Source of the DNA: a virus
Strand: one strand, 5' to 3'
Length of the DNA: 37,590 bases
Virus record (IMG/VR): IMGVR_UViG_3300007535_000001
Span: 1-37,590 of that record
Both the position numbers and the translations under genes were made by a program. Under the pieces are notes generated by a model. The model saw only the letters and a program-made list of their open reading frames with translations, searched no databases and was not told where the DNA came from. Positions 5,172 to 36,300 of this stretch are shown here, in pieces (within the stretch, counting starts at the first letter, position 1; each line of letters begins with the position of its first letter).

Positions 5172-7754
5172 TTAAACAAATTTTGCTGTTCTATCAAACT
5201 TAGCCATTCTCTTAGGGTCTGTATCAGAAGTCGGGTGATAATATCCAAATATCCATTCTATATCTTCAGGAGCTACTGGGTCTATTAATATATCTTCTTG
5301 AACTTCAAAGCTATCAAAGTCTTCTATTGGATTAACTACTGTAATATCTTCTTCTATTCCCATCTCAGCGTTATCAGCGTATATTTCTTCGGAAGTTTCT
5401 GCTTCATCTATATCCAATTCATCAGGCTGTAATATTTTCGCTAACATTGATATTAAGTCCATTCTTTTATTACTTACTAGCTCTACTTTATACATAAAGG
5501 TTTCAGCGTCTATCAATCTGTAATCTATTCTGCTTATAATTAAAGTATCATCAGCTCCACTAGCATTACTTTGAACATTTATATTCATTCCTAGCTCTAA
5601 AAACTTATTATAGGTTTCAAATTGTGCGTCTATCAATGGCTGTGCGTAGGCATATAATTCAGCACTTGCTCTTTTTCTAGCTATTTTATTACTTCTTATA
5701 TCGTTTTCTCTTATCATTTTTTCTTGAACTCCATAAGCCTCAACGCTGTCTGTATCTTCGGCAATAGCAAATACTCTAATTTTAGGTCTTCCACTAAATT
5801 CAATTATATCACCATCAGCTAAAGCAGTTTCAAATCTGAAAGACTGGTTTTGATAATTATATAGAACATCATAATTTGTAAAATCATTTATATTATCAAC
5901 TCCTACATCTTGTGCTACTCCATTTAAACTAACTGATAAATCACTAACTTTATAAGGTAAATTAAATGACTTGGTAGCATTTCCACTTACTGTTATGCTA
6001 TCTGTATAAATTTCCCCATCATATTCACCACCTCTAATTTTAATTCTGTTTATTAATTGGCTACCACTTGCTGTTCTTCTTAGACTTTTATAAATATAAT
6101 TCCCGCTTGTATCTGTTATGTCTTGTGGAGCTTTCTCTTGTGTTTTTTCAAAAAGATGAACTGATTTATTTTCATCTACATACCATCTATAATTTAAAAG
6201 GTCTGCTAATCTTTGTATTGCTGTTGCTATTGGTATTTGATTAAATACTACTTTATCAACTTCTATTCCTACTTGTGCGTTATCAGCATTAAAACCTGTT
6301 GGAGCATTAGTGCTTAACATATCAGCTATAATGTCGTGTATAGATTGATTTTCATAAGTCTTTCCTATAAGTCTTTTCTCTAGTAAATAACCATAATCAG
6401 CTCCCTTAACTTCTAACATAACTCCTTTAGAGCTAATGGTTTCATTTTCTGATTTTACATCTATTACTATTCCACTAAATATTAAATCTAAACCATCATA
6501 AATTTTTATTACATCTCTAAAGTTTGGAACTATTACACCATTATTTCTTATTTTAAAATTTACTTGGTCGCGTTTATTATCTAAAACTTTAGAAACTTTT
6601 AATGTATTGACTAATATATTCTCTATTCTTTCATCGTTTATATAAACTGAAACTCTATCAGCTTGAGGCTCTGGATATGGTCCAACTTGTAAAGTCGGAT
6701 TTAGTAAAGTAGCTGTTAATGTAAAAGGTGGAACTGTGATAACAGTTAAATCTTCTTCCTCTTCCTGACTTCCTATTGTATAAAAAGTAGAGGGAGAGCT
6801 TTGGTTATTGTATTCGGTGGAGATGTAATCTGAAGAAAGCAGAGTTGTAGAAACTCTTACCTCATCAATGTTTCCATTAAAAAAATTACCAGTAGCAAAG
6901 GGTGCATTTCCTAAGATTAAATCAACTGTCCCAAAATCAGGATTACCAGTTCCAGTCCCTGTAGCTACATTACTATTATCATAATAAATCTTTTTTTCTT
7001 TAGTAGAATAATCATAAGTAAAAACAATATGATGCCAATTAGTTGTATCTGTGTAAGTAGTCGCAGTGTTTAAATCATCACTATAAAAAGCAAATGTTAA
7101 ATAATTAGTATCTCTAAAACCACAATGTAATGCACTATCAGTAGATGAAGAAGTTCCTCTACCAAAAATATAATCATCGGTTCCAGTCGCTCCTCTTTTT
7201 ATCCAACAAGAAAGGGAAAAATCTTGGTTAAATTCGGGAATATTTGCTACACTACAATAATCATTACTCCCATCGAAATCATAAGCATCACCTATTTTAC
7301 CTGTTGTTAAAGTAGCACCATTAACTGTTCCATCATTTCCATTGCTCGTACTATTAGTTTTACCACCATCGTGAGAAGCAACTTTATAATTTGAGTTCCA
7401 AACATTCTCTGCTCCATAAGTAGCATTAGTAGCATAATCGCTTGCTCCACTATTTCCATAATAGATATAAAAGTCAGTATCAGTTGAGCCATCTACATCA
7501 CCTTTAAAATGAACTTCTCCCGTTTCTGCTGTGGTATCACAACTAACTACTTCTCTTGGCACTTCAGTTTCACCATCACTTGTTGTTATTCTTATATCTC
7601 CACCACCTGATTTTACATCATCAAAGAAATCAGAACCTAAATCTGATAAATCAATATAATTTACATAATCAGAAATAGTGCCAGTGCCGCTGACCTTATC
7701 TTTATCTACTGTTATTTTTTTTCTGTATAGCCAAGGGCTATTATACCAATTCAT
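5172..7754 (-). CDS. Baseplate/tail-tip hub with N-terminal DUF2341 and LamG lectin domains, 860 aa
   Basis: Three parts are visible. Residues 1-125 match DUF2341 (WLYRKKITVD start, later TDFYIYYGN). Residues about 133-325 are a LamG/concanavalin-like jelly roll (YDFDGSNDYCSV, FSLSCWIKR, WHHIVFTYDYS, FNGNIDEVRVS). After an acidic linker, residues about 365-740 resemble a phage tail-associated hub of the gp27/gp44 type (RVSVYINDERIENILVNTLKV, IFSGIVIDV, YGYLLEKRLIG). The order after the tape measure gene is right for a tail-tip hub. DUF2341-LamG is usually found on secreted cell-surface proteins, so a glycan-binding module has been added to the front of the hub. The C terminus (741-860) is acidic and of unknown role. 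Confidence 0.8.
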   Translation of the reverse strand: MNWYNSPWLYRKKITVDKDKVSGTGTISDYVNYIDLSDLGSDFFDDVKSGGGDIRITTSDGETEVPREVVSCDTTAETGEVHFKGDVDGSTDTDFYIYYGNSGASDYATNATYGAENVWNSNYKVASHDGGKTNSTSNGNDGTVNGATLTTGKIGDAYDFDGSNDYCSVANIPEFNQDFSLSCWIKRGATGTDDYIFGRGTSSSTDSALHCGFRDTNYLTFAFYSDDLNTATTYTDTTNWHHIVFTYDYSTKEKKIYYDNSNVATGTGTGNPDFGTVDLILGNAPFATGNFFNGNIDEVRVSTTLLSSDYISTEYNNQSSPSTFYTIGSQEEEEDLTVITVPPFTLTATLLNPTLQVGPYPEPQADRVSVYINDERIENILVNTLKVSKVLDNKRDQVNFKIRNNGVIVPNFRDVIKIYDGLDLIFSGIVIDVKSENETISSKGVMLEVKGADYGYLLEKRLIGKTYENQSIHDIIADMLSTNAPTGFNADNAQVGIEVDKVVFNQIPIATAIQRLADLLNYRWYVDENKSVHLFEKTQEKAPQDITDTSGNYIYKSLRRTASGSQLINRIKIRGGEYDGEIYTDSITVSGNATKSFNLPYKVSDLSVSLNGVAQDVGVDNINDFTNYDVLYNYQNQSFRFETALADGDIIEFSGRPKIRVFAIAEDTDSVEAYGVQEKMIRENDIRSNKIARKRASAELYAYAQPLIDAQFETYNKFLELGMNINVQSNASGADDTLIISRIDYRLIDAETFMYKVELVSNKRMDLISMLAKILQPDELDIDEAETSEEIYADNAEMGIEEDITVVNPIEDFDSFEVQEDILIDPVAPEDIEWIFGYYHPTSDTDPKRMAKFDRTAKFV

Positions 7755-15750: not shown

Positions 15751-17727
15751 TTATATCTGACATCTACAATTAATTACTTCCTCTGCAGGTGCTCCTGCTT
15801 CTCTTGGATATTGTAATCCATTACTAAAAGGAGTATCTATAGGCTTTTCTTCTCCATCTACCATTGAATGAGATGACCTTGTCTGAGCATCATTTACAGA
15901 AACCCATATCTTAATCGGAATATTCATTTGCTTATAACTCTCAAAAGTTCCTTTAGTCATAACACCCCCCACCTCTGTCCTTGCTATTGTGTTAGCTCTG
16001 CTTTTGCTTATATTGCCATAAGTATCTTCAATTCTTTTTACTAATTGTCTTCTAGGTTCTTCATTAGCAACACTTTCAGCAAATTCACCTTTTAACTTCT
16101 CAAAAGTAGTGTCATTAATCTGTTTAGCAAATACATTAGCTTTTTTATCTAACCAACTAGTCATTTCACTTGTTAAGGTAAAATTAGTTTCACTTCCCAT
16201 TAATTTGGCTGTGTCTTCCCCTGCTTCCCTTAAAAAACCTTCCATTAGTGGTAATAATTCTTTTACTGCTAAATTAACCTCTATATCTCTATTAAATTGC
16301 TCGTCTATCAAGTCTTTGCTCTTTTCTTCTTTAATACCTTCTAATAATCTATCTTTTTGTTTTTTAAAATATGTTCTTACTGCTCTTTTAAATATTTCTT
16401 CGTTTTTTTCTTCTTTAGATACTTTATGCTTACCATATAACTTTCTCATTGTTTTATCTCTTAAAGGGTGGTCAAAACTCTTTAAAGATTTATCTTTAGG
16501 AGTTTCTTTTTGAGGTTCTTCTCTTTCCTCATTTATATCAGTTAAATTAAAGGGTGCTAGTATTCTATCGCCATTTTCTATTTCATCTAATCCTGCCATT
16601 TCTCTTCTTTCATTAATAGTCATATAGTTATTATCTGAGCCATTAGTGATTTTACTATTAATAGTTTCAACATCTTCTTTAACATCATTCTTAAAGTGTA
16701 GCTCAAAACCATCAGGGATTAATAATTTATTTTCATTTAAAGCATTTCTTAGCTTATTAAGTAAAGGTAAAATAGTTTCTTTTAAGAAAACCTTAGCACT
16801 TTCCTCAGCGTTAGAGTATTTAATATCATCTACTGCTCCAAGTAATACTTTAGGAACTCCAGTTAAAATAACTGTATCGTTTAAAGTTAGCTTTTTACTT
16901 TCATTATAACCAAGCTCTTGTGGAGTAATAGCTGTTTTATTATAACTAGCTTTACCACCCAAAAACAATGGTCTTCCTGATTTCTTAGCGTCGCTATATT
17001 CTTTCTTATAACTTTCTTTAATCTGGTCTAGCTGAGCCTTAGTCAAATTACCATCAAAGCTCATTACACCATCAATGCTTCCACCATTTTGTAATATACT
17101 AGCTTGATATTCTGATAACTGATTATCTATATCTAAGTTCCTAGCTCCTTGTATCATTTTACTGACATTAGAAAACTGATTTTCTAAACCGTGATTATAA
17201 ACCTTAATAACCTCGTGAGGTTGTAAAGGTAAAACTCCTCCTTGTTCTTTTTGATATTCATAACCCACTATCTTTTGAGTTTCTTCATTATATTTAGTTT
17301 TAACTTGTAAAGGATTTAATAAATATAGCTTTGTATTCTTGTGATTAATCTTTACCTTGCCTAGCGTTTCAGTATAATCTCTTTCTGTATCTACATAAAT
17401 AAACGCAGCACCAGCTAAATCAAAATACTTTTGATACATTTCCCAAAACTCACTTCCAGATGAATACAAAGAATTAGGTTTGTTTAATAAGTCTAATACT
17501 TCGTGTTCTTCAATAATCTGCTCTCCTTTTTTTAAATACCACTCTACATCACCAACTTTTTCAGCTCTTTTATCAATAGCCTTACCAAAATAAAGGTTTT
17601 GTGTATAAGCCTTCATAAAGTCTTTACTACCCCAAGCCTTATTACTTGATTTTAGTTCTACACTTTGGTGGAGAACACCAGCAAAACTATCTTCACTTTT
17701 TTTAATTAATCTTTTAAAAATATTCAT
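15751..17727 (-). CDS. Portal protein fused to Mu F-like minor head protein, 658 aa
   Basis: Residues about 1-400 are an HK97-type portal (DFMKAYTQNLYFGKAIDKRA, LYLLNPLQVKTKYNEETQK, GVPKVLLGAVDDIKYSNAEE, MTINERREMAGLDEIENGDR). After a basic linker, residues about 540-658 are a phage Mu F / SPP1 gp7 domain (SRANTIARTEVGGVMTKGTF, KIWVSVNDAQTRSSHSMVDG, ending CRCQI). These are normally two separate genes; one continuous frame joins them here with no internal stop. The F domain is thought to be carried in the head and ejected or to aid DNA exit. Its ATG is only 18-22 bp past the U tract of a strong terminator. Confidence 0.9.
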   Translation of the reverse strand: MNIFKRLIKKSEDSFAGVLHQSVELKSSNKAWGSKDFMKAYTQNLYFGKAIDKRAEKVGDVEWYLKKGEQIIEEHEVLDLLNKPNSLYSSGSEFWEMYQKYFDLAGAAFIYVDTERDYTETLGKVKINHKNTKLYLLNPLQVKTKYNEETQKIVGYEYQKEQGGVLPLQPHEVIKVYNHGLENQFSNVSKMIQGARNLDIDNQLSEYQASILQNGGSIDGVMSFDGNLTKAQLDQIKESYKKEYSDAKKSGRPLFLGGKASYNKTAITPQELGYNESKKLTLNDTVILTGVPKVLLGAVDDIKYSNAEESAKVFLKETILPLLNKLRNALNENKLLIPDGFELHFKNDVKEDVETINSKITNGSDNNYMTINERREMAGLDEIENGDRILAPFNLTDINEEREEPQKETPKDKSLKSFDHPLRDKTMRKLYGKHKVSKEEKNEEIFKRAVRTYFKKQKDRLLEGIKEEKSKDLIDEQFNRDIEVNLAVKELLPLMEGFLREAGEDTAKLMGSETNFTLTSEMTSWLDKKANVFAKQINDTTFEKLKGEFAESVANEEPRRQLVKRIEDTYGNISKSRANTIARTEVGGVMTKGTFESYKQMNIPIKIWVSVNDAQTRSSHSMVDGEEKPIDTPFSNGLQYPREAGAPAEEVINCRCQI

Positions 17728-17744
17728 AATTTTGTTTTATATAT

Positions 17745-17785
17745 AAAAAACCACTACTCAAACTTTGTCTGTTCAAATAGTGGTT
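17745..17785 (-). terminator. Strong intrinsic terminator after tRNA-Met, before the late genes
   Basis: On the minus strand AACCACTATTTGAAC pairs with GTTTGAGTAGTGGTT over 15 positions (three G-T pairs) around the loop AGACAAA, followed by TTTT and ATATAT. It lies 24 bp after the tRNA and about 20 bp before the portal ATG. Transcripts from P4 or from the upstream operon should end here unless antiterminated. Confidence 0.9.
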
Positions 17786-17808
17786 CTTCCACTAGCGATA
17801 TTTAAATG

Positions 17809-17883
17809 TTGCGGTAGGCAGGATTTGAACCTGCGTCCTCCTGCTTATGAAACAGGCGAGCTTCCTGACTGCTCTACTCCGCA
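17809..17883 (-). tRNA. tRNA with anticodon CAT (elongator Met or Ile-lysidine type)
   Basis: The minus strand shows D arm GAGC, AGTCAGGAA, GCTC; anticodon stem CCTGT/GCAGG with loop TTCATAA; variable AGGAC; T arm GCAGG, TTCAAAT, CCTGC. The acceptor is TGCGGAG against CTACCGCA and needs one bulged A on the 3' side to pair fully. The three G-C pairs of an initiator anticodon stem are absent and base 1 is paired, so it is not an initiator. CCA is not encoded (ACATT follows). It has its own promoter and terminator. Confidence 0.85.
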
Positions 17884-20672: not shown

Positions 20673-21326
20673 TTACTTATTATCTTTTAATTTTTTAGCT
20701 AATTGTAATTGTTTCTTAGAATACCACGCTTTTTTGTATTCTATATTTTCAAATAACTTAGAAAATCCTGTTATATGCTTTAATCTTAATAGTTCCTCTG
20801 TTTCCATACCTAACTCATTACAAATATCTTCATCTTCCCAGCCATTATCTAGCATATTAAATACCATACTACTCATACCTGACACAGAATGCTTACCTCT
20901 TGCTCTATTATGCCTTACAGTTGACGCCATACGGTCGTTAATATCTTTTTCTAATACTACAACAGGTAATAGTCCTCCTGTTTTTTCACGAAGATCGCTG
21001 TAAGTTTTCAATATAAGGTATCTGTGAAATCCATCTATAATTATATACTTGTCTTTTTCTTTATCATAAATGGTAACGACTGGTTGAGTATATCCATCGT
21101 GGGATATAGAAGTATAAAGCAAATTCATTTCCTGTTTAGCAACAGAGTTCGGGTTATAATCATTAGCTTGAACTTTATTTATATCAACCCAAATCACATT
21201 ATCTACTGGCATATCTTTTTTACTTGATAGCTCTTTGAAAATCCAATTCTTTAAATCATAAATAAAAAAATCTTTATCTTCGCTTTTATCAAACTCTTTT
21301 TTAATTAATTCCTTTATTTTTTTCAT
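20673..21326 (-). CDS. ParB-like protein of the IbrB/YbdM type, 217 aa
   Basis: The ParB/Srx-type domain spans about residues 42-150: VDINKVQANDYNPNSVAKQE, DGFHRY (98-103) and VRHNRARGKH (137-146). This form, with HNRARGKH, is the one found beside PAPS-reductase-like PP-loop proteins (E. coli IbrA-IbrB and YbdN-YbdM). Its start overlaps the end of the PP-loop gene by 26 nt, so the two are coupled, as in those pairs. The rest is helical with a predicted HTH (EDICNELGMETEELLRLKHI). Molecular activity of this pair is not settled. Confidence 0.85.
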   Translation of the reverse strand: MKKIKELIKKEFDKSEDKDFFIYDLKNWIFKELSSKKDMPVDNVIWVDINKVQANDYNPNSVAKQEMNLLYTSISHDGYTQPVVTIYDKEKDKYIIIDGFHRYLILKTYSDLREKTGGLLPVVVLEKDINDRMASTVRHNRARGKHSVSGMSSMVFNMLDNGWEDEDICNELGMETEELLRLKHITGFSKLFENIEYKKAWYSKKQLQLAKKLKDNK

Positions 21327-22485
21327 ACATTTTAATATATTTATTAGTTTTATTATTTTTATGGTCTACTCCTTTCATATACTGTCGCCAACCGTGTATA
21401 TCAGGGTTTCTTTCTAAATTATCTAATTTTGTAAATGAAAAATCGTTTAATAATATAGTGTTTATTTGTGTTTTATAAAATACTTCTTTGTCTGGAAATT
21501 CTTTATACTTTTCATCAAGTTGCTTAAATTTCTTTCTAAACTTTTCTTTACTTATCTCAACTCCTTGTATAGTTCTATCTTCTATTAAATGTTCTAATAA
21601 ATAATTTCTATATTCTATCCAGTCCCTAAACATAAATGGTAGCTTATGAACAAAAAAATCTGATTTCCCAATTTTTCCTGCTGTATCTATTCCACCTATT
21701 CTTTTAACTAGTTTTTGATAAGTTTCACTTTCTATTTCCTGTAAATAAAATAATGAATGGACTGCTGTTTCGTGGTGTAAATTACTAACCCTCATATCTT
21801 TAACATTTATTCCATACATATACTGATAATCATATATCTTACAATAATCCCATTTATTATCGTGTATAGATTTCCAAATATCAGTATAACTCCAGTCATA
21901 TAGTGGGTAAAAAGTATAATGCTCTTTTCCTTTATTTAAAGTTTTTCCATAAGTTATATGTTTATATACTGGACCAGTAGTTAAGCTGGTATGCCTAGTC
22001 GGACTTTCCTCTGCTCTTACACCTGCTAAATAACAAGTTTTTTTATCACTAAATTCTTTATTGAGTATTTTGCCAAACATCTCTTTAAATCTATCTTCTC
22101 CATATTTATTTATCTTATAAGATATTGGCTCTTTCTCTCTAATCCATTCTTTCCCTTCCTCCCAACACATTAACCAAGGTTCTTTGTTTGAAGTAGCATT
22201 AAATAATCTAATTGGTATTTGAAACCACATAGGCTCTACTTCCTCTCTATACATTTGAGTTCTTACATAATCAATTACTGTTTGCCACTCTGCTTCTTGG
22301 TCAACAAAAAGTAATTTAACTGGTAATCTGTTTTTTTCTTTAGCAACTTCTATTGCTAAATTTAGTGTCACGGTGCTGTCTTTCCCACCAGAAAATCCCA
22401 CTACAATTTCTTCAAATTCATCATATAAAAATCTAATTCTATCTTTTGCGGTTTCGTATACATTTTGTTTACTAAAATATTTCAT
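21301..22485 (-). CDS. PAPS reductase-like PP-loop protein (DUF3440/IbrA-YbdN type), 394 aa
   Basis: VVGFSGGKDSTVTLN (PP-loop SGGKDS at 32-37) marks an ATP-pyrophosphatase of the adenylyl/PAPS reductase superfamily. The further pattern LPVKLLFVDQEAEWQTVIDY, YPLYDWSYTDIWKSI and the length near 400 fit the IbrA/YbdN group with its extra C-terminal part. These enzymes activate a substrate with ATP, often for sulfur transfer. ATG at 22485 has the ATATG context; an upstream TTG at 22497 is less likely. It overlaps the methyltransferase-like gene upstream and the ParB-like gene downstream, forming one translation unit. Confidence 0.88.
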   Translation of the reverse strand: MKYFSKQNVYETAKDRIRFLYDEFEEIVVGFSGGKDSTVTLNLAIEVAKEKNRLPVKLLFVDQEAEWQTVIDYVRTQMYREEVEPMWFQIPIRLFNATSNKEPWLMCWEEGKEWIREKEPISYKINKYGEDRFKEMFGKILNKEFSDKKTCYLAGVRAEESPTRHTSLTTGPVYKHITYGKTLNKGKEHYTFYPLYDWSYTDIWKSIHDNKWDYCKIYDYQYMYGINVKDMRVSNLHHETAVHSLFYLQEIESETYQKLVKRIGGIDTAGKIGKSDFFVHKLPFMFRDWIEYRNYLLEHLIEDRTIQGVEISKEKFRKKFKQLDEKYKEFPDKEVFYKTQINTILLNDFSFTKLDNLERNPDIHGWRQYMKGVDHKNNKTNKYIKMYEKNKGIN

Positions 22486-23044
22486 ATAAGTATCCAATAC
22501 ATTTTTTATTAAAGTCTGTTAATATAGCTTTCTTTTTATTAGCAATAGCATATTTACCTGTATTCCCATAACCACACATAAAGTCTAGTCCTAAGTCGTA
22601 TTTTATAAATAACTTTTTCAATAATTCGTCTGTATCTTTAGCTTTTAATTTATTGTCATTAGAATATAAACAAGTAGTCATTCCATTATGAACAGAAAAT
22701 CCTAATTCATATTGCTTATACTCCTTTAATTCTTTAATGGTATTTTTTTGAGCTATTATATAAAACGGTAAATTTAATTCCTTTACTATCTCTAAAGTTC
22801 TATTTGCTAAATAATTATACCCCTTGCCCTTCTTTTTTGCTCTTTTATTAAACTCATTATAACCCTTTCTATATGGTAAATCTAAATATACAAACTCTGC
22901 TTTATAAAATTCTTTAGGTATATTGTCTGTTTCTACATTAAAAATAAAAGCATTTATATTATTATCTTTATAATAATCCCTAGGCTTTCCTCGTTGTTTA
23001 AAGTTTTCTATATATGGAGTTTTGGCTGCAGAATGATATGTCAT
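22472..23044 (-). CDS. DNA adenine methyltransferase-like protein (DLPY motif), 190 aa
   Basis: DLPY (55-58) within YLDLPYRKGYNEF matches motif IV of amino-methyltransferases ((D/N)PPY with Leu in place of the first Pro), and DFMCGYGNTGKYAIANKK (154-171) matches the S-adenosylmethionine-binding FxGxG motif I. Motif IV precedes motif I, the beta-type order. There is no target-recognition domain of usual size, so specificity may come from a partner. It could also act on another nucleic acid. Its ATG overlaps the 95-aa gene stop (ATGA). Confidence 0.75.
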   Translation of the reverse strand: MTYHSAAKTPYIENFKQRGKPRDYYKDNNINAFIFNVETDNIPKEFYKAEFVYLDLPYRKGYNEFNKRAKKKGKGYNYLANRTLEIVKELNLPFYIIAQKNTIKELKEYKQYELGFSVHNGMTTCLYSNDNKLKAKDTDELLKKLFIKYDLGLDFMCGYGNTGKYAIANKKKAILTDFNKKCIGYLYEIF

Positions 23045-26498: not shown

Positions 26499-26654
26499 TT
26501 ATAATTTTAATTCCCAAAATAATCTTGCTAATCCATTTCTCCAGCCTTTAGAAAACTCTGTATTTTCTTCTTTTACTTCTTCTTTAATTCCTAATAAGGC
26601 TAGTTTAATTTGTTCTTTGCTTAAAAATGTTTCTTTGTTGTTATCTTCTGGCAT
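26499..26654 (-). CDS. Small protein, 51 aa
   Basis: ATG at 26654 in ATATG context is 1 nt after the stop of the 244-aa gene; TAA at 26501-26499 is 13 nt before the SSB ATG. The product starts MPEDNNKETFLSKEQIKLAL and ends with GWRNGLARLFWELKL. It fills a gap that would otherwise be the only one in this operon. Codons 4-7 contain TAACAACA. Function unknown. Confidence 0.65.
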   Translation of the reverse strand: MPEDNNKETFLSKEQIKLALLGIKEEVKEENTEFSKGWRNGLARLFWELKL

Positions 26655-26655
26655 A

Positions 26656-27390
26656 TTATTTAATGGTTAATTCACTTATTTTTTTATATAAAACTAATTT
26701 ATCTTCCTTGTTTTTAATTACATAACTATCTATGTCATTGATATCTACTCCATTATCTTTTAGCCAGTCTTTCATTTTAGCGTCTTTTAATTGTTCTTCT
26801 TGTTTTGCTTTTTTATCAGCTTCTTCTTGTAAAATCTTTTGAGCTTGTCTATCTTGTTCTTCTTTAACTGCTTTTTCTTTGGCTTCTTCAATTCTTTTTT
26901 CTTCTTGTTCTTTTCTTTCTTTTTCAATCCTTTCTTTATCTTTAATTTCTAAATATTCTAATTTTATTTTGTTATAAAAATCAGCCCACTGCTTTTCATC
27001 ATAATTTAAAATATCTTCATCATTTAAACTATAATTAATTTCTTCCAACTGCTTTTTTCTATCTGGTAATAACACTTTTCTATCTTCTCTAGCTTTTTCT
27101 TCATCAACTTTTTGTAATTGCTCTTTATAATCTTCAATAACTGGACTTGTAATAGCCTTTAAATCTTTCTCTAAGGCAATAATACCTCTTTGCCATTCAA
27201 GTGCCTGTTGTCTTTCTGACTTTGCTAATTTTTCAAGTTCAATTTCTTCTTTTCTTAATTCATTTTTAGCTTGCTTTACTTTATCGTAGCCTTCCTTGTC
27301 TTCTACTCCATTTATTTTTAAACCTTTGTTTGTTTCAACGAGAGTATTTAATTTACTTCTTATCTCGTTGAATACTTCTAAATTATTCAT
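26656..27390 (-). CDS. Coiled-coil recombination-operon protein (DUF1351-like), 244 aa
   Basis: Almost wholly helical and charged: KQAKNELRKEEIELEKLAKS, later a long E/K/R region (EKERKEQEEKRIEEAKEKAV), and a C-terminal small domain (MKDWLKDNGVDINDIDSYVI). Proteins of this form (DUF1351 type) commonly accompany YqaJ exonuclease and annealing proteins in phages. Its ATG overlaps the exonuclease TGA by 4 nt (ATGA), and CTAACAACA lies 5 nt upstream of the ATG. Confidence 0.78.
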   Translation of the reverse strand: MNNLEVFNEIRSKLNTLVETNKGLKINGVEDKEGYDKVKQAKNELRKEEIELEKLAKSERQQALEWQRGIIALEKDLKAITSPVIEDYKEQLQKVDEEKAREDRKVLLPDRKKQLEEINYSLNDEDILNYDEKQWADFYNKIKLEYLEIKDKERIEKERKEQEEKRIEEAKEKAVKEEQDRQAQKILQEEADKKAKQEEQLKDAKMKDWLKDNGVDINDIDSYVIKNKEDKLVLYKKISELTIK

Positions 27391-27998
27391 ACATTTGTTG
27401 TTAGTTTATTATATTTATTAATTAATTCTTTAATCATCTTAATACCATTTAACAAGCCTATCTCAAGTTTTTCTTGTTTTACTTGGTCTGGATAAACTCT
27501 TTTTAGAATTGCGTTTTGTTTATAATTAGGGCAATAAATCATCAAGTCCCACCACTCTCTTTTGCTTATAAGTAAGTTCATTTGTATCTGCCAGTCATAA
27601 TCTTTTAAAGGGTCTAAATCACCTATTAACATTTTAAAATACTTCTTATCTTCTACACATTTAATTTCTAGTCCACCAGTTTCACCAATTAGTCCATCGG
27701 GCGATACTCCTATATAATTACCTTCACTTATAAATCCTACTTGTTCTACTCTATTTCCTGTTTCCAGTTCATACACCCCCCTAGCCTGTTCTTCTAACTC
27801 ATTACCTCGTTCTGTATGTTCGTTGCTAAAGTTTTCTTTTTCTTGGCTAGAGTAATATTCTGCTACTAAGTCATATATATAAGTTTGAAGTCCTTTACCA
27901 TTGTTTCCTATTGCTTGGGCGTGAGAAGCTGTCATTCTATTTTTTCTTATATCAAACCACTCTTGCGTTCCTTGTTTAATTTTATCGTGTATTTTCAT
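27387..27998 (-). CDS. YqaJ-like recombination exonuclease, 203 aa
   Basis: QGTQEWFDIRKNRMTAS (9-25), HTERGNELEEQAR (61-73) and SPDGLIGETGGLEIKC (99-114) give the PD-(D/E)xK core of lambda exonuclease/YqaJ enzymes (Asp101, Glu111, Lys113), with a DWQIQMNL helix (135-142). It resects dsDNA ends so that the partner annealing protein can load. Same operon as that protein, with a 122-aa gene between. Length is typical. Confidence 0.93.
   Translation of the reverse strand: MKIHDKIKQGTQEWFDIRKNRMTASHAQAIGNNGKGLQTYIYDLVAEYYSSQEKENFSNEHTERGNELEEQARGVYELETGNRVEQVGFISEGNYIGVSPDGLIGETGGLEIKCVEDKKYFKMLIGDLDPLKDYDWQIQMNLLISKREWWDLMIYCPNYKQNAILKRVYPDQVKQEKLEIGLLNGIKMIKELINKYNKLTTNV
27396..27404 (-). promoter_or_regulatory. 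CTAACAACA motif 5 nt before ATG of the 244-aa gene
   Basis: The minus strand reads CTAACAACA, AATGT, ATG. All nine bases are complementary to TGTTGTTAG in the apical loop region of the small RNA at 30268-30260. The motif is inside the last exonuclease codons. Confidence 0.55.
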
Positions 27999-28372: not shown

Positions 28373-28975
28373 TTAATCTTTAAGTTCTTTACTTCTTTCA
28401 GTTATCAGTTTCTCAATATCTTTACCTTTACCTTTATATTTCTCGTATGCTTTTCTTAGGTCGTCTATGTTGTCTATCTTATTAATAGCTTCAATAATTC
28501 TTTTTGTTTCTTCGTTTTTTTCTTCTTCAGGTTTCTCTGGTAAGTCTTCGCCAGCATAAATATAAAGTCCAAGACCAAACATAGCTAAGTTTTTAGTTAA
28601 ACAACGCATTATAGTTTTGTTAATGTCAAACATATTTGCTGGTTCCACTGTCTTTTCTCCATATTTAGTTTTATAACTATACTGCTTATTTTTCATAGCT
28701 TTATTTGCCCCGTCCATTACAGGAAGCCACATTTCATATTTAGTATCATCAGCTTCAACTTCTGTAAATACCATATAACCAGTATTCTCATCATAAACAT
28801 AAGGTAAATTATTCTCTCCAAACTTTTTAATCTTATACTTAGCTTCTGGGTAAATCTTTTTAAATTCTGCCCAAGCCCAAGCCCAACTAAGATAAGTTAA
28901 GTTTCCCTTTTTTTCTGTTTTGTTATTAGCATTTAAATTATATGCTTTTTCAAATTTTGTTAATTCTTTTTCCAT
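28373..28975 (-). CDS. Sak3-type (DUF1071) single-strand annealing protein, 200 aa
   Basis: NLTYLSWAWAWAEFKKIYPE (24-43), later MVFTEVEADDTKYEMWLPVM and NMFDINKTIMRCLTKNLAMF with GLGLYIYAGEDLP is the signature of DUF1071/Sak3 annealing proteins. They load on ssDNA made by the exonuclease and anneal it to complementary DNA. C-terminal 60 residues are a charged tail. It is the first gene after promoter P3 and its ATG is 5 nt below a TAACAACA motif. Confidence 0.92.
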   Translation of the reverse strand: MEKELTKFEKAYNLNANNKTEKKGNLTYLSWAWAWAEFKKIYPEAKYKIKKFGENNLPYVYDENTGYMVFTEVEADDTKYEMWLPVMDGANKAMKNKQYSYKTKYGEKTVEPANMFDINKTIMRCLTKNLAMFGLGLYIYAGEDLPEKPEEEKNEETKRIIEAINKIDNIDDLRKAYEKYKGKGKDIEKLITERSKELKD

Positions 28976-28980
28976 ATATT

Positions 28981-28988
28981 TGTTGTTA
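28981..28988 (-). promoter_or_regulatory. TAACAACA motif 5 nt before ATG of the annealing protein
   Basis: The minus strand reads TTAACAACA, AATAT, ATG in the 5' leader of the P3 transcript. The same leader sequence is found after P1, and it is complementary to the loop of the small RNA at 30268-30261. Confidence 0.6.
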
Positions 28989-29475: not shown

Positions 29476-30204
29476 TTATATATTACTAAGGTCAATAAAT
29501 CTTGACTCTTCTTTATTAAAGTTTTTTAAATTATTAAACCAAGTTGCTAATCTTCTACCTACTTCAAATGTTTTTTGCGTTTCCCAGCGTTGTTTTGTTC
29601 CACTCTTATTAGGTTCAGTCCAGTAAGATATAAATTTAAGCATTTCTTGTTTTACTAATTCTTCATTACTACTACCAGAATATTTATCTAAAAACTTTTT
29701 TCTATATTCAGAGTTATCGTTATTAAAGAAATCTTTTGCTATTTGTGAGGGTGTGGGCGATTTATCGCCACTCTCTCTAGTAGTCTCTGTTGTAGTCTCT
29801 GTTGTAGTCTCTGTAATAGTTATTGGTTTTTCCTCACTCTTGTTGTTGGTTTTTCCACCATCCAGTTGTTGGTTTTTCCCACAACTAGTTATTAGTTTAA
29901 TCAGTTTATTGATATCTACCTTATAATAGCTTTTAGCTGGTATTCCTTTACGCTCTATTTTAACTATTCCTAATTCTACTAACTTCTTTTTAGCGCTCTT
30001 TAACTCATATAAGCCCATTCCCAACTCTTCACTAAAATCATTATCAGTCTTGTAAAACTCCTCGTATTTCATTGTTTTAGACCAATACACTAGCTGTGAT
30101 AAGAGTAATCCAGCTGTTATACTACCTGTTATTTTTGAATAAACCCTGTTATAAGCGATAGGTTTTTCATTGAACTCATCAAAAAGTTTTTTTAGTTCTT
30201 CCAT
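29476..30204 (-). CDS. HTH replication-initiation-type protein, 242 aa
   Basis: The N-terminal 110 residues (AYNRVYSKITGSITAGLLLS, QLVYWSKTM, then ELGMGLYELKSAKKKLVELG) are a winged helix-turn-helix of the kind seen in phage replisome organisers and O/DnaD-like proteins. A linker with TETTTETTTETT (coded by a 12-bp tandem repeat) joins to a C-terminal helical domain (SYWTEPNKSGTKQRWETQKT, FEVGRRLATWFNNLKNF) like those that load the host helicase. No phage helicase or polymerase is present, so this protein probably recruits the host replisome. It lies directly after the small-RNA terminator. Confidence 0.8.
   Translation of the reverse strand: MEELKKLFDEFNEKPIAYNRVYSKITGSITAGLLLSQLVYWSKTMKYEEFYKTDNDFSEELGMGLYELKSAKKKLVELGIVKIERKGIPAKSYYKVDINKLIKLITSCGKNQQLDGGKTNNKSEEKPITITETTTETTTETTRESGDKSPTPSQIAKDFFNNDNSEYRKKFLDKYSGSSNEELVKQEMLKFISYWTEPNKSGTKQRWETQKTFEVGRRLATWFNNLKNFNKEESRFIDLSNI
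29781..29816. repeat. 12-bp tandem repeat, 3 copies, in the replication protein linker
   Basis: Plus strand unit TAGTCTCTGTTG appears three times (the last with AA for TG) and codes for TETT repeats. It should vary in copy number by slippage without breaking the frame. A second short repeat, GTTGGTTTTTCC, follows near 29822-29880. Confidence 0.85.
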
Positions 30205-30225: not shown

Positions 30226-30249
30226 AAAAAAAGGACTTAGAACTAGGGG
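30226..30249 (-). terminator. 3' arm and U tract of the small-RNA terminator
   Basis: CCCCTAGTTCTAAGTCC closes the 17-position P1 stem with 30310-30294 and is followed by seven T. It stands 22 bp before the ATG of the 242-aa gene, which would depend on read-through. Confidence 0.8.
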
Positions 30250-30324
30250 TAGTCAACGGCTAACAACATAACCGCCAGTAGTATTACCTACTGCCCCTAA
30301 ATCTAAATCCTCATTTTTAAATTT

Positions 30325-30341
30325 GTTGTTAGTTCTGACTA
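30325..30341 (-). promoter_or_regulatory. 5' leader segment able to pair with the small-RNA loop and junction
   Basis: Minus strand TAGTCA (30341-30336) is complementary to TGACTA (30255-30250), and CTAACAAC (30332-30325) to GTTGTTAG (30267-30260). Pairing in the same order gives 14 bp around a small internal loop and would break the P3 stem. This is either an antiterminator-type switch or a pseudoknot. Confidence 0.6.
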
Positions 30342-30353
30342 TCATATACTATT

Positions 30354-30382
30354 ATATTATACTATTAATTTTAATTTGTCAA
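30354..30382 (-). promoter_or_regulatory. Sigma-70 promoter P2 of the small RNA
   Basis: Minus strand TTGACA (30382-30377, perfect consensus), 17-bp spacer, TAATAT (30359-30354); a TATAAT with 15-bp spacing overlaps. The -35 box abuts the stop of the 105-aa gene. Confidence 0.8.
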
Positions 30383-31785: not shown

Positions 31786-31810
31786 ATAGTTGTTATTTAG
31801 AACCCATTAG

Positions 31811-31860
31811 TAAGGTGAGGCTATATCGCTAAGTGGTTGCTCTGCTTACACCCCACCTTA
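31811..31860 (-). ncRNA. Hairpin element in the early leader region
   Basis: On the minus strand TAAGGTGGGG pairs with CCTCACCTTA over 10 bp (one G-T), enclosing 30 nt with a further TAAG/CTTA stem. No T run follows, so it is not a terminator. It occupies the 86-bp gap between two early genes and may be an mRNA processing or stability site. It is much richer in G/C than its surroundings. It is too short inside for a tRNA. Confidence 0.45.
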
Positions 31861-31871
31861 TAAATAGGATG

Positions 31872-32111
31872 TTAATTTAATTCGTCGTAATCTTCCATTA
31901 AATTATCTTGTATCTCGTCGTTAATCTTTTCATCTATTAGCTCTTGCTTTTCTAATTCTATATCTCTTTTTTTTTCTTCTAGTTGTCTGTTAAATTTTCT
32001 CCAGTCTTTATCATCTCCTAGCAAGGCTACTTCGTTTTTTACTTCTGTTAATTGTAAATTGTTTTTGAAAGCTAACTGATAATAGTAAGCTGGTCTGATT
32101 TGATTTTTCAT
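31872..32111 (-). CDS. Hypothetical charged protein, 79 aa
   Basis: I chose ATG at 32111 (AACAAAAATATG, 7 nt after the previous stop) rather than 32138, which lies inside the 50-aa gene. The product starts MKNQIRPAYYYQLAFKNN and continues as a charged helix (FNRQLEEKKRDIELEKQELI) with an acidic end. No family recognised. Second gene after promoter P1. Confidence 0.65.
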   Translation of the reverse strand: MKNQIRPAYYYQLAFKNNLQLTEVKNEVALLGDDKDWRKFNRQLEEKKRDIELEKQELIDEKINDEIQDNLMEDYDELN

Positions 32112-32118
32112 ATTTTTG

Positions 32119-32271
32119 TTATTTAATATTATTTTCATTTTGTAGTTCTAGCTCTAGACTTACTAACTCATTTACTAAGTCCATCTCTGAACTTCCTAAT
32201 TCTTTCTCTAGTGCTTTTTGTGTTTTTACAATCTTTTTTTGTAGTTGTTGTAATTTTTTTTGTTTAGTCAT
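32119..32271 (-). CDS. Small coiled-coil protein, 50 aa, first early gene
   Basis: ATG at 32271, TAA at 32121-32119. The product starts MTKQKKLQQLQKKIVKTQKA and ends with LVSLELELQNENNIK, a single amphipathic coiled coil. It is the first frame after promoter P1, with TAACAACA 5 nt before the ATG, which supports it as a real gene despite its size. Early phage proteins of this type often bind host factors. Confidence 0.68.
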   Translation of the reverse strand: MTKQKKLQQLQKKIVKTQKALEKELGSSEMDLVNELVSLELELQNENNIK

Positions 32272-32276
32272 ATTGT

Positions 32277-32284
32277 TGTTGTTA
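32277..32284 (-). promoter_or_regulatory. TAACAACA motif 5 nt before the first early ATG
   Basis: The minus strand reads TTAACAACA, ACAAT, ATG in the leader of the P1 transcript. Motif and spacing equal those before the annealing protein and the 244-aa protein. Confidence 0.6.
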
Positions 32285-33328: not shown

Positions 33329-36300
33329 CTCTTTTTCAATTATTTTGTTATCAATAATTAAACTAGTCTTTATTATATTTAAATCTTCTTCTTCTTTTAT
33401 TCTATTAAATTCTAGTTTGTTTGATATTATATTAACTTCTATTTCAATATAATTTCCTTTAAATTCACTGTATCCTGATAATTCAATATCTACATCATCT
33501 TCCTCTGCTTCTACACCAAATAAATCTAAGTCTTTTTCTGAGTTGTCGCTTAATTTACTAGTTAACTCAATATCTTTTTCTTCTACTGCTTTATCTTTTG
33601 AATTGATTTCAATATATTTCTCACTTGTCTTATCTACTTCACTGCTGATTTCTAAATTATTTTCCGTGTTAGCTTCTTCTTCTCCAATTAATTCAATATC
33701 TCTCTCACTTAATGTTTCAGGCTCTATACCTTCAAGCTCCATTCCTCTATTATCGCTTACTTCTTCTTTACCTGAAATCTCTATATCTTCTTCTTTTTGT
33801 ATTTCTTTTTTACCTGTAATATTTATTCCTCTATCATTATTAGCATCATTTTTACTATTTAATTCAATATTTCTATCACTACTAATATATTCTTCACTAC
33901 TAATCTCAATAGACTTATCTGAGTTTGTGTCTTCTTCGCTATTTATTTCAATATTACTATCGCTATCAATATCCTCTCTACCATTAATTTCTACATCTCT
34001 GTCATCTTGTGTTGTGTTTATACCGTGTAGCTCTATTCTTCTATCGCTAAACTCCCCACCGTCTACTGGTATTTCAACACCTCTCTCATCATTTTCATCA
34101 GCTTCTGTTTCCATTTCAAGATTTCTTTCATCGCTTGCTTCCTTGCTACCAGTAATATCTAAATTTTTCTCATCGCTTAAATCTTTATCACTACTTAATT
34201 CTATTAAATTCTCATCGCTAGTATCTTCTTTGCTATTAACTTCGATACTAATTTCTGAGTTAGTATCTTTTTCACTATTAACCTCTACTAAATTTTCATC
34301 AGTTGCGTCTTCGTTACCAGTAATATCTAAACTGTTTTCATCTCCTGCGTCTTCCTCAACTATAATCTCTATATCTCTATTAGTGTTAGTGTCTTTATCA
34401 CCAGTAATATCTATATTTCTTTCTGATTGCTCATCTGTGTATTGGCTTTCACCTATAAGCTCAATTCCTCTATTATCATCAATATCTTCTTTACCTGACA
34501 AATCAATATTTTTCTCATCGTTTATATCTTCCTTACCTGTAAGTTTAATATTCTTATCTGAATTTAAATCTTCCTCTACATTCAATTCAACATCTCTTTC
34601 TGAGTTATCACTTTCCTTAGCATTTATCTCAACTGAGCTTTCATCACTTGCCTCATCTTTACTAGTTAGCTCCAAGTTAGTATCGCTACTTGTGTTTTCC
34701 TTGCCTAATAACTCTAAGTTTCTATCGCTATTTGTATCAAGTTTTTCTTGTCCTTCAAGCTCTAAGTTAACACTACTATTGTCTATGTCTTTACCTATTA
34801 TTTCTAAATTAGTATCATTATTATTTTCTTCTTTACCAACTAATTCTAAATTAACATCTGAATTATCTCCAGCCTTACCATCTAATATTATATTACAATC
34901 ATTTGAAACATTATAAGCACCTGTTAAAATAATTTGTCTTTCATAATTATTAAAATCAATAGACGACAACTCTTGAACATTTATATTATTATCAACAAGA
35001 TAATCAATTATATCTTCAAAGTCGCTTGTTAGCCAGTCTTCTCCATCAACTAAAGTGTCAACTAATTTATGGAAATTAAGAATACAGACACCACCATTTT
35101 CTTCTGCTTGGTCAATCCAATTTTTAACCATTTCTTGTGTTGTCCATTTGTCTATTGAATGTCTATTAACAGAAGTGTTTGACACATAACTTAATGGCTG
35201 TATATACCCGTTAATATTAAAACCATACTTAAAATTGTGACTCAATAAACTTTCAAATATTTCATCATTAAATGCTCCGTTCGGGTAAGCATACAAATTA
35301 GAACCTAAATAATTATTTGTTTGTAAATAATTTTTTACACTATTAAAATGATTATTAAGTTGTTCTTCTGTTAAAGCTGTTAATATTCCCATTCTATGTC
35401 CACCAATACTCCAACCATTACTTGAAAAACTGTCTAACTGACTTTTAGTTATAAATCCACTTTCGCCAATATAATCTGGGTCAATAAATAATGTTCCTTT
35501 AAATCCAGCATCGTCCATTATAGCTTTAGATGGCATTAATTCTTCTTTACCATCATCAAAACATATACAAACAGCACTATTTGGAGATTTATGTATTGTA
35601 TCAACTACATTAATTTTCATTGATACTCTTTCGCTTCCATCATCTTGTAAAGTGATAAAAGCCATATCAAGTCTATTCAAATCAACATTCCCTTCAAACT
35701 CTGTCCCTGCTATTGGAACGACAACCTCTATCCATTCATCATTAGGAGCATTTATTAGTCTACTTTTAAAATTAATAATAAAACTATCACTAATACTCCA
35801 TAAGTCAGACGCAAATCTTAATGTTGCTTGATTAACAGCACTCCAATTTGAACACTTTACAAGAACTCTAATGTCTTTATTAACTAAATCTAATTCACTT
35901 CCAGTTAGTGTCTTATATATAGCTGACCGACTTGAACTTTGTGTTGTTATTACCAACGAGCCAATACCTTCTTTATAGTCAGTAGTTGACCAACTAAAAT
36001 CGCCTACATTGTCCCAATCGTCCCAATCATTTGCTATTACTCCAGTATTTTCTTTAGCTTCTATTGTATCATCGCTACTTAACTCTAAATTAATATCTGA
36101 ATTATCTGATAAATTACCTTCTATTTCTAAACCTCTTTCAGTATTACTACTATTTTTACCTGTAATTTCTAAATTAGTATCAGCATTACTATTTGCTTTA
36201 GCTGTTAACTCAATATTTCTTTCGTCGTCATCATCTGTTGATTGTGCTTGTCCTTCTAATTCAATTCCCCTTTCAGAATTACTTTCTTTTTCTCCTTCTA

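Follow-up and report, generated by a model that had tools for sequence, protein, structure and literature searches.

As read from the sequence, a promoter, a leader, an RNA folding into a three-way junction and a terminator constitute one unit directly before the replication-initiator gene of this virus, and the RNA thus delineated carries both a motif located at the starts of early genes, TAACAACA, and the complement of that motif in a hairpin loop. Considering all the evidence, we tentatively favour, with confidence somewhat short of even, a cis-acting leader RNA (an attenuator/terminator) of the replication gene; a switch or terminator acting on itself is a more probable role for the RNA than that of a proven master regulator. 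Since the initiation and regulation of genes without Shine-Dalgarno (SD) sites are little understood, a leader motif at fixed spacing together with an RNA bearing both motif and complement provides a concrete, testable case, and even if only the cis switch turns out to be true, it would add to the cases in which phages control a replication gene through RNA.

A structured RNA upstream of the replication-initiator gene

The element is located on the minus strand of the window, that is, the entire stretch of 37,590 nucleotides that was analysed, and comprises the following features:

30351..30382, minus: promoter of the RNA (TTGACA at 30382-30377; -10 box ambiguous)
30324..30332, minus: leader copy of the start motif, CTAACAACA, inside the same RNA and upstream of a possible 3-codon ORF
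30303..30314, minus: that possible mini-ORF, AUG AGG AUU UAG (3 codons plus stop), as read from the sequence
30294..30311, minus: 5' arm of the basal (terminator) stem, AGGAUUUAGAUUUAGGGG, from the fold
30276..30293, minus: hairpin 1, CAGTAG-GTAATA-CTACTG, from the fold
30256..30275, minus: hairpin 2, GCGGUUA-UGUUGU-UAGCCGU, from the fold, containing the loop TGTTGTTAG (30268-30260)
30250..30255, minus: junction strand UGACUA, complement of leader UAGUCA, from fold and duplex
30226..30249, minus: 3' arm of the basal stem, CCCCTAGTTCTAAGTCC, plus seven T, together the intrinsic terminator, from sequence and fold
29476..30204, minus: gene of an O-like / DnaD-like replication initiator, immediately following the terminator

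The promoter starts one base past the stop codon of a 105-aa gene, and its -10 box is either TAATAT at 30359-30354 (spacer 17) or TATAAT at 30361-30356 (spacer 15). In the predicted architecture, 30311-30294 pairs with 30249-30233 to form a long basal stem, from which two hairpins branch at a three-way junction, and the T run follows; fold and T run thus place an intrinsic terminator between the promoter and the replication gene, which a simple terminator scan misses because the terminator's loop is the branched three-way junction. The possible mini-ORF reaches into the terminator stem's 5' arm. For minus-strand positions 30350-30205 we obtained a folding energy of -45.3 kcal/mol (standard RNA parameters, 37 C) and a z-score of -5.1, with 0 of 200 shuffles equalling it; in a scan of 2250 windows, a single region scored lower. 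Promoter, fold and terminator together suggest that the RNA may be expressed.

The only region with a lower z-score lies beside tRNA-Met: a very strong minus-strand hairpin at 17681-17810, between tRNA-Met and the portal gene (~19 pairs, then TTTTTT; z -7.6), which is probably a terminator. Within the replication gene itself, iteron-like repeats (three with a 23-nt step and three with a 12-nt step) extend over 29772-29898, also given as 29818-29898; the repeat region is a likely origin, and its units contain CCAACAAC, which resembles the start motif.

A start motif at early genes without Shine-Dalgarno sites

The first-pass annotation had placed the motif 5 nt upstream of three start codons (32271, 28975 and 27390), with a further copy inside a 51-aa gene. 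All of these coordinates hold on the minus strand:

32277..32284, minus: TTAACAACA-ACAAT-ATG, before the first gene (32119-32271); promoter TTGACC-17-TATAAT at 32331-32303
28981..28988, minus: TTAACAACA-AATAT-ATG, before the gene for a Sak-like annealing protein (28373-28975); promoter TTGACT-17-TATAAT at 29028-29000
27396..27404, minus: CTAACAACA-AATGT-ATG, before a 244-aa gene (26656-27390)
26636..26643, minus: copy of TAACAACA within codons 4-7 of the 51-aa gene

The copy at 27404-27396 doubles as the end of a RecE-like exonuclease reading frame (..KLTTNV*), and the one in the 51-aa gene is probably incidental coding sequence, since the homologue in the related contig L002 is devoid of the motif at that place. 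Counted against shuffled sequence, as had been proposed, TAACAACA occurs nine times in the window where 2.5 copies are expected (0 of 100 shuffles); eight of the nine are on the coding (minus) strand, with three directly at starts, and further coding-strand copies at 7302-7309, 7581-7588 and 35942-35949 all lie within genes. When the upstream regions of 54 genes were compared position by position for 8-mers with at least two G/C, three copies at one position arose in 1 of 1000 shuffles. The repetition of this 8-mer at constant spacing is not chance.

A GGAGG-type SD sequence precedes none of the 54 starts. All three strong TTGAC/TATAAT promoters of the early region (P1, P2 and the RNA's own) run into TAACAACA, and in the sequences listed the distance between motif and -10 box varies while that between motif and ATG is constant, which speaks for a role in translation. 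The most fitting reading of TAACAACA is an ACA-type translation enhancer, that is, a C/A-rich leader motif that would promote translation at promoter-proximal starts of an SD-less phage. It is known that weak structure is a widespread property of SD-less starts and aids initiation (PMC5397173), and that ACA motifs help initiation and are, in enteric bacteria, targets of GcvB (PMC3879156). As a general SD replacement for all genes the motif was rejected, being present at only 3 of 54 starts. The alternative proposal, in which the RNA copies TAACAACA as an SD replacement, accounts for the data at least as well as control in trans does.

A further minus-strand hairpin (31786-31880; -26.7 kcal/mol, no T run, no Rfam match of note) is located just before a 67-aa gene, the start of which also has TAACAAC (TAACAACTAT-ATG).

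The motif is retained in two relatives, L002 and L003, whose Sak proteins are 83% alike to that of the present virus. Both keep CAACA-N5-ATG or near forms behind promoters: (i) CTAACAACA-AATTT-ATG stands before a different gene (L002:4463-4479), following a 300-aa gene that is inserted there and a second copy of the exonuclease tail, (ii) another promoter runs into TCAACA-AACAT-ATG, and (iii) a third start has TAACAATA-AACTT-ATG. The presence of the motif behind the relatives' promoters, along with the absence of SD sequences at the 54 starts, indicates that it has a purpose without any RNA. In the more distant relatives L234 and L235 the start motif was not seen, and the structural relatives L025 and L026 comprise the late region only. 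A search of viral contigs for a promoter followed by TAACAACA-N5-ATG returned a single match, in a GC-richer contig and apparently by chance.

In the region 3531-4476 of L002, the 300-aa gene lies between the exonuclease and a 65-aa gene and has, by eye, an RNA-ligase-like KxDGS motif; behind this gene, the end of the exonuclease occurs a second time, along with the start motif.

Pairing of the loop in cis and in trans

That the loop at 30268-30260, TGTTGTTAG, is the complement of the start motif was confirmed on the minus strand. Its description as exposed holds for the hexaloop UGUUGU (30268-30263), which is fully open with probability 1.0; the remaining UAG sits in the stem, and opening all nine bases costs 5.8 kcal/mol.

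The best partner of this loop is the RNA's own leader, whose copy of the motif at 30332-30324 had not been among those noted originally. The same transcript hence contains two complementary segments, CTAACAACA and TGTTGTTAG, which match over 9 of 9 bases; among start and leader sites, all nine bases are matched only there and at 27404. Beside the nine-base match leader AUAGUCAG faces UUGACUA, and the complete duplex has an energy of -17.0 kcal/mol, equalled by 6 of 5000 shuffles at the dinucleotide level and by 15 of 5000 at the mononucleotide level. The loop would then match three other starts because the RNA's own leader shares their motif. The flanking helix alone was dropped as proof of pairing in cis, since 535 of 5000 shuffles are as good and it is thus not significant by itself.

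Folding of successively longer prefixes, in which each nascent fold is the minimum for its length with kinetics and pausing ignored, places the leader:loop helix in the minimum at RNA lengths of 84-100 nt, with -27.9 kcal/mol at 100 nt. The same nascent fold includes AAAUUUAAA:UUUAGAUUU, in which leader AAAUUUAAA is the alternative partner of the terminator's 5' arm and holds it. Once the 3' arm is present, the three-way-junction terminator fold (-45.3) displaces the leader:loop pairing in the step-by-step fold. When only the leader was shuffled, an equally good nascent fold arose in 7 of 2000 cases (z -3.3). The alternative fold hence beats shuffled leaders but is far less stable than the terminator fold.

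Such an element would be expected to work as follows. During synthesis, the leader (AUAGUCAG-aa-CUAACAACA) would pair with loop and junction (UGUUGUUAG-ccg-UUGACUA) while AAAUUUAAA occupies the terminator's 5' arm; with the 3' arm transcribed, the terminator stem would win and transcription would stop. Read-through might occur if the other fold were favoured by a ribosome at the leader motif or mini-ORF, by polymerase speed or by a factor, and a ribosome at the leader motif could, speculatively, mask the terminator's 5' arm via the mini-ORF. The leader copy of the motif, the leader:loop minimum in nascent RNA and a seven-T terminator before the replication initiator all argue for this cis-acting leader. 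However, the terminator fold is so much more stable that the alternative may be a mere passing intermediate of folding; the leader copy sits 9, and not 5, nt before the AUG of the mini-ORF; and the replication gene could, by its sequence, own a weak promoter past the terminator (TATAAT just before the ATG).

A different role for the leader copy, namely as a mimic or decoy which titrates a factor binding early leaders (a ribosomal protein S1-like or an early protein) with the loop regulating that copy, would be in line with the motif shared between the RNA and early mRNAs. Nothing in the sequence calls for such a factor, however, neither a factor nor a partner gene was found, and we regard this role as very improbable.

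The first-pass annotation had instead proposed a trans-acting RNA that shuts or times early translation. In such a model, the loop of a stable, terminated RNA would cover TAACAACA at the three early starts and block initiation. Motif, spacing and complementarity are real, comprising an exact complement of 8-9 bases at three equally spaced starts and the fixed-position enrichment described above. Moreover, the hexaloop is fully open and the target sites are mostly so, the RNA has its own promoter and terminator, and precedents have been described (PMC3879156, PMC4825925), so that a phage RNA masking C/A-rich translation enhancers is, by analogy, plausible. The calculated energies are weak, however: about -5.5 kcal/mol for the open hexaloop with each of the three targets, and -8.4 to -10.5 kcal/mol for nine-base pairing before the opening cost of 5.8. 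Ranked among the 54 starts by loop duplex, 27390 is best, and 28975 and 32271 are tied third, but second place goes to start 9891 (-8.9), which does not have the motif; when the loop region is widened, nothing sets the claimed targets apart. The hexaloop complement ACAACA is common, and 4 of its 31 occurrences on the coding strand are at starts. The RNA's own leader, which pairs best, would compete in cis, and a loop tracking the start motif was found in none of the relatives, including the parts of L002 and L003 that keep the motif. The trans model is not favoured because its pairing is weak, a motif-less start ranks second and ACAACA is common; it is possible in these calculations but, on balance, unlikely. 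In a variant of this model, the RNA might additionally act on the motif in its own leader, in the manner of P4 CI RNA or IsrK.

The frequency of ACAACA would also fit a coincidence between ordinary parts, in which a structured terminator RNA closes the first early operon, TAACAACA is no more than a leader/translation motif and UGUUGU matches a common AC-rich word by chance. The other strong hairpin of the window (17681-17790), which resembles a plain terminator, and the retention of the start motif in relatives without this RNA are both consistent with a coincidence, but the match to the RNA's own leader spans nine bases plus extended pairing, seen in only 0.1-0.3% of shuffles, and we consider the coincidence somewhat doubtful. 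The most far-reaching combination, in which one RNA, carrying the early start signal TAACAACA with the exact complement of that signal exposed in a loop, would both time the replication gene in cis and shut the early-gene class in trans, appears quite unlikely.

Relatives and comparison with known systems

Homologues of the RNA were sought in several ways. In viral contigs, the exact loop/stem pattern gave 19 matches, all unrelated on inspection; the pattern of motif, antimotif and T run gave >120 matches of a chance type, the hairpin pattern 5 coding-like matches, genome contigs none, and blastn in phages weak partial matches only. The collections scanned thus yielded no homologue of the RNA and hence no covariation, which weighs against the cis-acting leader. 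No relatives of the replication initiator were found, and a search of genomes with Sak matched many phyla at 42-66% identity, indicating no host. In Rfam, no family reached its gathering score, the entries at E<=10 being chance models far below cut-offs, and GcvB, P4 CI RNA, C4 antisense RNA and IsrK were matched neither at gathering score nor at E<=10.

Judged by sequence and fold, the element would nevertheless work somewhat like P4 CI RNA, IsrK and the attenuation of plasmid rep genes, a likeness that does not establish membership. The P4 CI RNA, with seqA and seqC, confers phage immunity through premature transcription termination and, as here, is a phage RNA heading replication genes, with a complement in its own leader and termination before those genes (PMC4825925); in contrast, the present RNA has an intrinsic terminator with a T run, shows no sequence or Rfam match, and neither two flanking targets nor CI-like processing or trans action are in evidence. 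IsrK of prophage Gifsy-1 likewise combines a terminated short RNA with a possible read-through mRNA from one promoter and with alternative folds (PMC4825925), but the gene downstream here is a replication initiator, trans action of the short form is only conjectural here, and there is no Rfam match. In plasmids pT181 and pIP501, a rep gene likewise has a leader that contains a terminator (PMC5415839); there, however, an antisense RNA triggers attenuation, and none was identified here.

For pairing in trans, the comparison is with GcvB of Salmonella, which hides C/A-rich translation enhancers at starts. Both RNAs have a single-stranded G/U segment, predicted in the present case, that is complementary to C/A-rich start motifs, and the motif targeted by GcvB itself enhances translation (PMC3879156); the G/U-rich open segment of the present RNA finds its complement at three starts, with weak energies. 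Unlike GcvB, this is a phage RNA in an SD-less context with a six-base loop and no Rfam match, for which ACA function and trans pairing are predicted only.

In L002, and identically in L003, the region 1370-1510 comprises a promoter and, after it, a structured leader, the 5' end of which, GUUUGUUGAUAAUU, is able to pair with the leader's own start region, AAUUAAUAACAAUAAAC; the duplex is equalled by 83 of 3000 shuffles, and cis control of the same type may operate in this relative. Within 783-1030 of L002, a second promoter precedes a stretch of ~200 nt that appears to be non-coding and leads up to a short gene, a candidate for a further RNA. Finally, the window contains a phosphoadenosine phosphosulfate reductase-like gene at 21301-22497, here in a phage.
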